Of a DNA stretch of 64,000 nt, positions 53,324 to 59,180 are shown one piece after another. The stretch's first letter is position 1, and each line of letters opens with the position of its first letter. A model generated the notes under the pieces. The model searched no databases, had not been told where the DNA came from, and worked only from the letters and a program-made list of their open reading frames with translations. The DNA is from Acanthamoeba lenticulata (Eukaryota > Discosea > Longamoebia > Acanthamoebidae), in NCBI GenBank assembly GCA_002179805.1, contig NAVB01000243.1, positions 31,236-95,235 on the forward strand. The letters run 5' to 3'. The translations under genes and the position numbers were made by a program.

Positions 53324-56300
53324 ATGCCGCCCATTCGCCCCAAGCCTGCGGAGGGCGGATGGTGGGCCACGGTGCAAGACCTGAAGGATGCAAACTTTGC
53401 CCTCGAGACCGTTTCCTTCGGCTTGTTCAAGGTCATCACAGGCAGCAGCGGCCCGCCCTTTCGATTGCTCTTGTGCGGTTCCAATTACGAAATCGCCCGT
53501 GCATGGACCAAAGAGGAAGCCCTCGCAGACTGGGCCTGGGCGCAGACTAAATACGAGGAAGAGGTTCACCTCGTCGGTTCTACCAAGTTCTCAGACCACC
53601 ACTTTCTTGCTCTCTTTGAGGCGCACTGGCAGCACGACCATCCTGAGGACGCTCCTGTGGAGACGAAAAGAGGGGCCGTCTTCTGCCCCGAGCTGTTTGA
53701 TGGTACACACCCTCAACTTGGGCTGCTACTGTCCTGCAAGCCGCCTGCTCAACTCTTCTACTTGCTGCACTTTGCACAGCGCTGCAGCAGAACAACCGCG
53801 GCGCGGTGGCCAAGCTGCTAGCGAGCCGCGGGCCAGGCATCTTGCAGTCGCCCAACCGGCTGGGCGAGCTGCCCCTCCACTTTTGCGTGGCTCACGGCAA
53901 CCTGGAGCTCACGCGCTACCTCCTCTCTAAAGGCGCCGATCTCAACGCAAAGGACAAGACCGGCTGGACTCCGCTCCACGTACTCTTTTGCCCAGCCCTT
54001 GACCTTATCTCTTCCCCTGAGGCTCACCTGTCGTGCATCTCGTAGATCGCGTGCCACTCGGGCGACCTGCGTATGTGCGAGTTCCTGATGAGGCAGGAAG
54101 GCATCGGCGTGATGGTGATCTCGTGCGACAATACTCTGCCTCTGCACTACCTCGTCTCCCACTCGTTTGCGGCCGAGGAGGCGCAGCTACTGTCGGTCTT
54201 GAGTATGATGGTGGCCAATGGCGCCTCCGTCAACTCCCAGACCGCTCAGGGCGCCACACCACTGATGAGGTAAGACGAGCCTCTCCCCATCTTTAAACGC
54301 GCTTACCTTCGAGGTTGCTTACTGTGTCATGCACAGGGCCGCCATCAAGCGCAACATCGCTGGTGTGCGCTTCCTGTTAAGTCAAGGGGCCGACGTCAAC
54401 CTCGCCGACAAGTACTTCTTCCCTTCTGTCGAGTTCGCTGTGGTGACCGGCATTAACGCCTTCTCCTTAAATGATGACGAACAGGACCGGGGAAACGGCG
54501 CTGCACTACGCCGTGCGGGGAGGCGACAAGGATATTGTGCAGCTGCTGATCGACTATGGAGTCAACATCCGCCTGGCAGGTACCGACCTTTCTACACACT
54601 CACTCAGAGAACGTCTATTGGGTGGACTGAATTATTAATACGTATGTGCACGCAGGCGATCAGGGCGACGCTCGCGAGGTCGCCTTTCGGCTGAACCGAC
54701 ACGATCTCGTCAAAGTTCTGGACGTGGGCGCGATGATGGTCCTCAACCCGGCGACGCTGTCGTCCGGCCTGGCCATTTCCTCTCGCACCGCGACAGAGGG
54801 CGACAACGATGTCCTGAGCCAGACCAGCCGCAGCGGCAGTACGGCGAGCTGCAACGACGACGATGAATCGAGTGACTGCGACGATGGAATCGTGCGTTCT
54901 TATCTCACTTTCACTCACATTCACTCTTATCCGGACTGGACTAACCTGAGGTTGCTTGCAACCAATGAAGCGCGAGCGCCGGAGGACGGTGGGCGAGATC
55001 AGCGCGCGCACGTTCATCAAGCCGCCGGTGTCGGTACGTTCGGCGAGAGTCGAGGGCGCCCACCGGGCGCGGTCGCCGTCGTTTGGCTCGAGCCTGCAGT
55101 CATACAAGGACAAGGGCCTCATCGGCGGCGGCGCCGGCGGCAGCGGCGGCCTTGTTGGTGTCGGCACCACCGAGTCCGAGCCCAACCTCGAGGACAACAA
55201 CCTCAAACCCATCGTGTTCGGTGCGTGTTGCAGTCAAACAAGTTGACCTTACGTCATGCGTCATGGCACTCATATCCTATGTTTCAATTCTGCGGCGCCG
55301 GACAGAGCTCGACCAGCCGGCCCATGTGTTCCGGCTCACACGCTTTAACAAATTGACGTCGTGCGACTACTGCAAGGGCTACATTATCTCTATCGTCGCT
55401 CGTGACAACTACATGTGCGATGGTACGTGACGGGTGATGTTGATGATGATAATCGTGCCACACTGCCTTAAGTCGTCAGTGCCTAATGTTGTGCGGTGGT
55501 GCCTCAGTGTGCGGTTACGTGGTGCACAAAAAGTGCCGAAAGCTGGCGCTGTTCACATGCAAGTGCGAGGACAGTCCCGCTCGTGACTTCTACACCATCG
55601 ACCTACCCGCCTCGAGTATGCTCTCGACGACGCCGACGACGACCGCTGTTGGCGGCGGCAACCCGCTCGCCATATCGGCGCCGTGTAAGCCGGCCCGCGA
55701 GGAGCTCAAGGTGGCCTACTCGATGCAGATGGACCTGTCGGCTCGCATTCACGAGAGCCGCCAGCGAGGGCTCGAGAACTCATTCTCGGGCGACTACCCG
55801 GTGGTCCGCGCGCGGCCCCAGCCGGTGATCGTCGAGCACGTCGTGCCCGCCGACGGCCAGGGCAAGGCCACCAGCGGAGATCACCAGCACACCGGCGCCG
55901 TCGTCGTGCAGCGGCGGTTACCTTCGCCTCCGCCAGCTGCGGGTCTGTCGGCCTCGTCGGATCTCACGTTCCCGCGCAATCATCCGCTCCCGCTGCCCCC
56001 GACGGCGACAACGACGGCGGCGGTGACCAACGGTGGCAACCGCGCGCGCTCGGGCGCTTCGCTCATCAGTGCTGCGTTTGCGTCGTTGTCGCCCCGCCCG
56101 CAGCCGGTCGCGGTCGCGCGCCACCGACTCGCGTCACTGCACGACGAGCTCCAGGTGGACAGCGCGCGGCACGACGTCGCGCGGACTGACCTCAAGCAGG
56201 GCGATGGCGACGGAGACGGCGATGACAATCTTTCCTCTTCCGCTCCCGCCTCGGTTCATGTCCCACGAATCGCGCCCTTAACTTCTCCGCTTCTTGCCAA

Positions 56301-59180: not shown

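Follow-up and report, generated by a model that had tools for sequence, protein, structure and literature searches.

Phosphatidylinositol phosphate kinases (PIPKs) with EF-hands N-terminal to the kinase domain have been described for Plasmodium, Toxoplasma and Tetrahymena, and in the reports concerned the fusion is called apicomplexan-specific or alveolate-specific (PMC10543664; PMC3823935), with an alveolate-specific subfamily named in one of them (PMC3823935). Here we describe a gene of the amoeba Acanthamoeba lenticulata whose predicted protein combines, from its N-terminus onward, a conserved N-terminal region, ankyrin repeats, a C1 domain, an NCS-1-like EF-hand module and a complete PIPK domain. 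The gene lies within a stretch of 64,000 nucleotides (contig NAVB01000243.1, positions 31,236 to 95,235 of the forward strand), referred to below as the window. An earlier sequence-only reading of the window had held that known PIPKs carry MORN, G protein-coupled receptor (GPCR) or FYVE/chaperonin regions instead, a statement not supported in view of the published EF-hand PIPKs (EF-PIPKs) of the three genera above. The EF-hand-PIPK fusion as such is already known; of the amoebozoan ankyrin-C1-EF-PIPK layout no published description was found in the literature searched. In the reading that we prefer, with a probability of roughly 0.6, the protein is a phosphatidylinositol 4-phosphate (PI4P) 5-kinase that would be positioned through its N-terminal region and ankyrin repeats and have its activity adjusted by the EF-hand module, the C1 domain serving as a docking domain for something other than diacylglycerol.

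A single gene with a complete kinase domain

The splice model, which was made by hand, comprises 20 exons separated by 19 introns, all GT-AG and 64-108 bases long, between positions 53324 and 59180 of the plus strand. The spliced coding sequence of 4332 nt forms one open frame of 1443 amino acids (aa) and closes with a TGA stop at 59178-59180. Because Pfam matches were found for each domain, and PDB sequence matches for the C1 domain, the EF region and the kinase, the coordinates and the domain list given by the sequence-only reading are correct; its claim of a single polypeptide is supported. The list did not include the N-terminal region (aa 1-126), which is conserved, has no Pfam match and is also present in the relatives P0002, P0244 and P0245.

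As the model is hand-made, an ankyrin-C1 gene and a neighboring EF-PIPK gene might have been wrongly fused in it. A split into two transcripts within 57300-57600, named beforehand as the observation that would speak against a single protein, finds no support, since P0001, P0002 and P0003 can be aligned continuously across this interval with a gap of at most one residue. Furthermore, the four Pfam domains occur together in P0005, whose name marks it as a transcript assembled with Trinity, as well as in Balamuthia and dictyostelid gene models, and no plus-strand AATAAA occurs inside 53324-59180, the first one 3' of the stop lying at 59313. A two-gene split was rejected on these grounds and is highly improbable. 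In the species' own assembly (48.48 Mb, 1825 contigs), an exon-by-exon search with aa 487-1443 shows the gene to be single-copy, other matches being 27-53% identical; exon-level matches to PIP5K number 30 in the whole assembly.

The kinase domain matches the Pfam PIP5K family (PF01504) over aa 1190-1441 with an expectation value (E) of 4.3e-76, above the curated cut-off and complete (profile positions 5-288 of 288), and its PDB sequence matches include PIP4K2B (3.2e-39) and PIP5K1A (1.2e-38). The catalytic motifs of PIPKs are the Lys of IIK, the Asp of MDYSL and the Asp of IID, and type I PI4P 5-kinases have a Glu in a specificity loop of the form KKxE/AxxxK (PMC3823935). In the window protein the catalytic residues are intact (Lys in FFIKTL, Asp in CDYSF and Asp in IIDIL) and the loop reads KKGERLLK, with the Glu present. 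From the catalytic residues and this loop we predict a PI4P 5-kinase, and the earlier proposal of an enzyme making phosphatidylinositol 4,5-bisphosphate (PI(4,5)P2) is upheld at the level of sequence prediction. The 17 Pfam matches of the protein at E<=1 include no seven-helix receptor family, as in GPCR-PIPKs (type IV), and neither FYVE nor chaperonin, as in PIKfyve/Fab1 (type III).

The C1 domain and diacylglycerol

The window C1 domain scores 35.9 bits with Pfam C1_1 (cut-off 26.5), and in the PDB sequence search it matches protein kinase C beta (PKC-beta; 1.9e-10). All eight zinc ligands (H-C-C-C-C-H-C-C) are kept, as they are in the 14 relatives compared. The groove residues relevant to diacylglycerol are P11, W22, G23, Q27 and G28; the PKC-beta C1a and RasGRP1 rows of the alignment show only that those binders carry them. 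None of the five is kept in the window protein, where L, I, S, D and N stand in their place and the loop carries one extra residue, and P0001 has the same five replacements and the same insertion. C1 residues incompatible with binding were among the refuting observations that the sequence-only reading had itself named. Because all five groove residues are replaced, diacylglycerol gating of the window protein is unlikely, and it was rejected for this gene. The domain itself is 90% identical between the window protein and P0001, against 43% and 55% for the linkers on either side (aligned columns), and is therefore still constrained and probably has a role other than diacylglycerol binding.

The groove is complete (P, W, G, Q, G) in all seven dictyostelid-type rows, five of them dictyostelid by name, and the three dictyostelid-type proteins scanned score 45.4-47.5 bits, compared to 35.9 for the window. 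Their C1 domain looks able to bind diacylglycerol. Among the other relatives, P0005 has P, F, G, Q, G and P0002 (Balamuthia) has P, W, S, Q, G, while P0003, P0004, P0007 and P0012 have lost two to four of the five.

These observations bear on the proposal of the sequence-only reading that the window enzyme is gated jointly by diacylglycerol through the C1 domain and by Ca2+ through the EF-hands, with a built-in phospholipase C feedback. Both modules do stand in one chain, the groove is kept throughout the dictyostelid-type relatives, and coding regions for PI-PLC-X domains lie on two contigs of the assembly, so that a PI(4,5)P2-consuming enzyme probably exists there, but the C1 domain of the window protein does not look capable of sensing the lipid that it would produce. 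However, the replaced groove and inserted loop residue shared with P0001, the lower C1 score and the single canonical EF loop described below make joint gating of the window enzyme improbable. The feedback idea is a better fit to the dictyostelid relatives, which kept the groove, than to the window gene, which lost it.

The EF-hand module and calcium

The best PDB sequence match of the EF region is NCS-1 (1.6e-17), and Pfam EF-hand_6 recognizes one loop above its cut-off (5.7e-8, aa 987-1010). When scanned with the canonical EF-loop pattern, one of the four 12-residue loops of the window protein is canonical, namely EF3 (DVDGNGYIDRFE). The EF-hands claimed earlier are thus present as a module, three of whose four loops are degenerate. 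Of 17 scanned family members, 11 have at least one passing loop; the 17 include the window protein and also P0006, P0243 and P0252, each of which lacks at least one domain of the four. Elsewhere than in the window the passing loops are EF2 in dictyostelids (in P0244 also EF3), EF1 and EF3 in Balamuthia and EF1 in Planoprotostelium.

In the preferred reading, the window gene would encode a single multidomain PI4P 5-kinase that its N-terminal region and ankyrin repeats would bring to a membrane partner. The NCS-like EF module, abutting the PIPK N-terminal helix, may tune activity with Ca2+ via its one intact loop, and the C1 domain would be a zinc-folded docking surface for a protein or an acidic lipid and no diacylglycerol sensor. 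Several points weigh against this reading. Its Ca2+ step hangs on a single intact loop, and the Ca2+ site is not steadily conserved across the family, the point that weighs most heavily against Ca2+ gating: six of the 17 members (P0001, P0243, P0004, P0005, P0007 and P0012) have no passing loop. In P0001, a relative with 90% identity to the window protein, EF3 fails the pattern by one residue, a Glu at loop position 6, and may still bind Ca2+ because only that residue fails; in P0243 (649 aa, 72% identical to P0001) the EF3 loop is lost. The structure model used was that of P0243, whose EF3 differs from that of the window protein. In addition, the choice of substrate is inferred from the loop motif alone, and AlphaFold2 and PDB comparison give no assignable fold for the N-terminal region.

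The EF module could alternatively be a structural relic without a Ca2+ response, control being exerted by ankyrin or N-terminal partners or by an Arf-type GTPase. The degenerate loops of the window protein, the Glu of P0001 and the loss in P0243 would agree with this, as would the Plasmodium EF-PIPK, which is reported to be activated by Arf1, with Ca2+ control put forward as a proposal (PMC10543664; PMC3823935). Against a relic stand the canonical EF3 of the window protein, the two passing loops in Balamuthia and the identity of the module to that of P0001, which is 85% compared to 55% for the preceding linker (aa 549-905; aligned columns). We regard a relic as possible, if rather unlikely. 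For the preferred EF-tuned enzyme, Ca2+ control is plausible, although the support for it is weak: gating is possible through EF3, and the degenerate EF1, EF2 and EF4 and the lack of a passing loop in P0001 and P0243 do not favor it.

Distribution and phylogeny

Three protein searches were made, from which the best 120 of 186 matches (7993 candidates scored), the best 120 of 1358 (3099) and all 57 (7991) were taken, giving 279 distinct fetched proteins in all. By Pfam, at least nine of these (P0001, P0002, P0005, P0244, P0245, P0246, P0250, P0253 and P0256) have all four domains. Custom hidden Markov models (HMMs) built from eight relatives and the window protein find the four domains at E<1e-3 in 14 of 280 sequences (window included), in identical order in all, a count that is circular for the eight of these 14 that belong to the nine training sequences. 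Named bearers are Balamuthia mandrillaris (Discosea), Cavenderia fasciculata (Evosea), Tieghemostelium lacteum and Acytostelium subglobosum. P0253 and P0256 cluster with the named dictyostelids (100/100 in the 52-row tree below); the P0256 gene model continues into a phosphoribosyltransferase. Partial layouts also occur: the Pfam C1 domain is missing in P0003 (a Stereomyxa transcript) and P0006 (Planoprotostelium) and under the cut-off in P0007, P0004 and P0012 have no Pfam EF-hand above the cut-off, and P0252 (Heterostelium) is without the ankyrin part.

An EF module upstream of the PIPK domain is present in 33 of the best 120 of 186 matches and in 67 of the 279 fetched proteins. Counted in the 67 are P0277 and P0279, which combine PDZ and EF-hand domains with a hit to the model of the PIPK N-terminal helix and no more than a weak PIPK tail, and are possibly truncated or mispredicted. 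The bearers include named amoebozoans, Paramecium, Blepharisma and the EukProt entries PhM_4, PhF_6 and Hpha, which we take to be euglenozoan strains. Since named amoebozoans and presumed euglenozoans carry EF-PIPKs, the apicomplexan-specific and alveolate-specific statements look too narrow. No apicomplexan EF-PIPK with an EF module was recognized among the named matches, the gregarine P0165 having no EF match.

A first PIPK tree of 57 rows was rebuilt with 52; no root was inferred and neither tree has a Plasmodium row. Twelve rows, mostly long branches, were dropped (P0014, P0028, P0064, P0070, P0104, P0138, P0152, P0254, P0261, P0266, P0268 and P0269) and seven were added (P0019, P0162, P0171, P0242, P0250, P0255 and P0256). 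In the 52-row tree, 25 amoebozoan EF-PIPKs group together (99/94), as do seven EF-PIPKs of presumed Euglenozoa, some of them taken as such by name (P0013, P0016, P0021, P0024, P0241, P0242 and P0247; 100/100). One label change parts the 42 EF rows, P0165 being counted among them although it showed no EF module, from the fungal and metazoan rows, on a branch with support under 80. In the 57-row tree the corresponding group (89/78) includes P0269, a GPCR-PIPK, and P0266 falls among the amoebozoan rows; both are long-branched and without an EF match, which is evidence against a single clean EF clade. A single origin of the fusion is possible.

Because EF-PIPKs occur in Amoebozoa and probably in Euglenozoa, a direct link from Ca2+ to PI(4,5)P2 synthesis may be much more ancient, or may have evolved multiple times; in its amoebozoan form, ankyrin repeats and C1 are present in addition. 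More tentatively, and on balance doubtfully, the layout could be an old amoebozoan coincidence detector, in which diacylglycerol on C1 and Ca2+ on the EF-hands, both downstream of phospholipase C, would recruit or switch on PI(4,5)P2 resynthesis. The diacylglycerol arm would then have survived in dictyostelids and been lost later in the A. lenticulata lineage, and the EF-PIPK core would antedate the divergence of Amoebozoa, Alveolata and Euglenozoa. With groove residues complete in dictyostelids and gone in the window protein, the two C1 domains form a natural test pair for diacylglycerol control of a PIP kinase, one of them in amoebae for which genetic methods are established.

Features and surroundings of the locus

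Table 1. Features of the A. lenticulata gene and its predicted protein (positions within the window)
Feature	Positions	Strand	Residues (aa)	Basis or remark
Whole gene model	53324..59180	+	1-1443	20 exons, 19 GT-AG introns
Conserved N-terminal region	53324..53701	+	1-126	AlphaFold2 mean predicted local distance difference test (pLDDT) 76.6; PDB comparison gave weak rows only
Ankyrin repeats (exons 1-6)	53702..54717	+	127-345	Pfam Ank_2 2.1e-33
C1 domain	55323..55566	+	493-545	Interrupted by intron 55423-55507; Pfam C1_1 6.5e-9
NCS-1/calcineurin-B-like EF-hand module	56656..57305	+	909-1070	PDB match NCS-1
EF1 loop DLDQVGIINQTQ	56704..56739	+	925-936	Degenerate: V at 5, Q at 12
EF2 loop DPEKTNRVDIKM	56888..56923	+	959-970	Degenerate: M at 12
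EF3 loop DVDGNGYIDRFE	57078..57113	+	995-1006	Canonical Ca2+ ligands
EF4 stretch ADVSGRITLPQY	57216..57251	+	1041-1052	Degenerate; NCS-1 one residue longer there
PIPK catalytic domain with N-terminal helix (FGHKDW...NMMLGI)	57413..59177	+	1083-1443	Pfam, PDB; fold via relative P0243
Type-I-like specificity loop KKGERLLK	58987..59010	+	1406-1413	Glu of KKxE/AxxxK present

On either side of the gene, an open reading frame at 50027-51361 (minus strand) matches DUF2838 (1.3e-18), and 60674-61411 (plus strand) has a weak match to an SLC35F transporter (20.8 bits against a cut-off of 21). On both strands of the 64-kb window together AATAAA occurs 57 times, compared to 7.7 expected from shuffles.

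Comparison with known PIP kinases

The closest counterparts are found among amoebozoan proteins. P0002 of B. mandrillaris, named 'Phosphatidylinositol 4-phosphate 5-kinase 1', has the same order of ankyrin repeats, C1, EF-hands and PIPK as the window protein; its C1 domain retains P, W, Q and G with a Ser at position 23, whereas that of the window retains none. The same four-domain order is found in the dictyostelid proteins P0244 and P0245, under the generic annotation 'ankyrin repeat-containing protein', but here the C1 groove residues are kept and other EF loops are intact than in the window. PikI has been reported as the main PIP5K in dictyostelids (PMC3969243; PMC8855053).

A second amoebal arrangement is that of Balamuthia PIPK 6 (P0008), which shares with the window protein an EF module upstream of the PIPK and in which the N-terminal region is weakly recognizable (23.2 bits), but which carries GRAM and NmrA where the window protein has ankyrin repeats and C1. 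P0008, P0010, P0011 and relatives make up a second PIPK family with GRAM, NmrA-like, EF and PIPK domains, some members also having ankyrin repeats.

Outside the Amoebozoa, the Plasmodium falciparum PIP5K/NCS protein (PF3D7_0110600) has NCS-like EF-hands N-terminal to a type-I-like PIPK, as in the window (PMC10543664; PMC3823935), where the EF module ends at residue 1070 and the PIPK helix begins at 1083. Ankyrin repeats or a C1 domain go unmentioned in the accessible descriptions of the Plasmodium and ciliate enzymes, Plasmodium being compared by description only, and the ciliate EF-PIPK rows sit in a different part of both trees from the amoebozoan ones. With the metazoan and fungal type I PIP5Ks (PIP5K1, Mss4), finally, the window protein has the PIPK fold, the catalytic residues and the type I loop in common; of the best 120 of 186 matches, 87 showed no EF module, and most of these 87 have fungal names.
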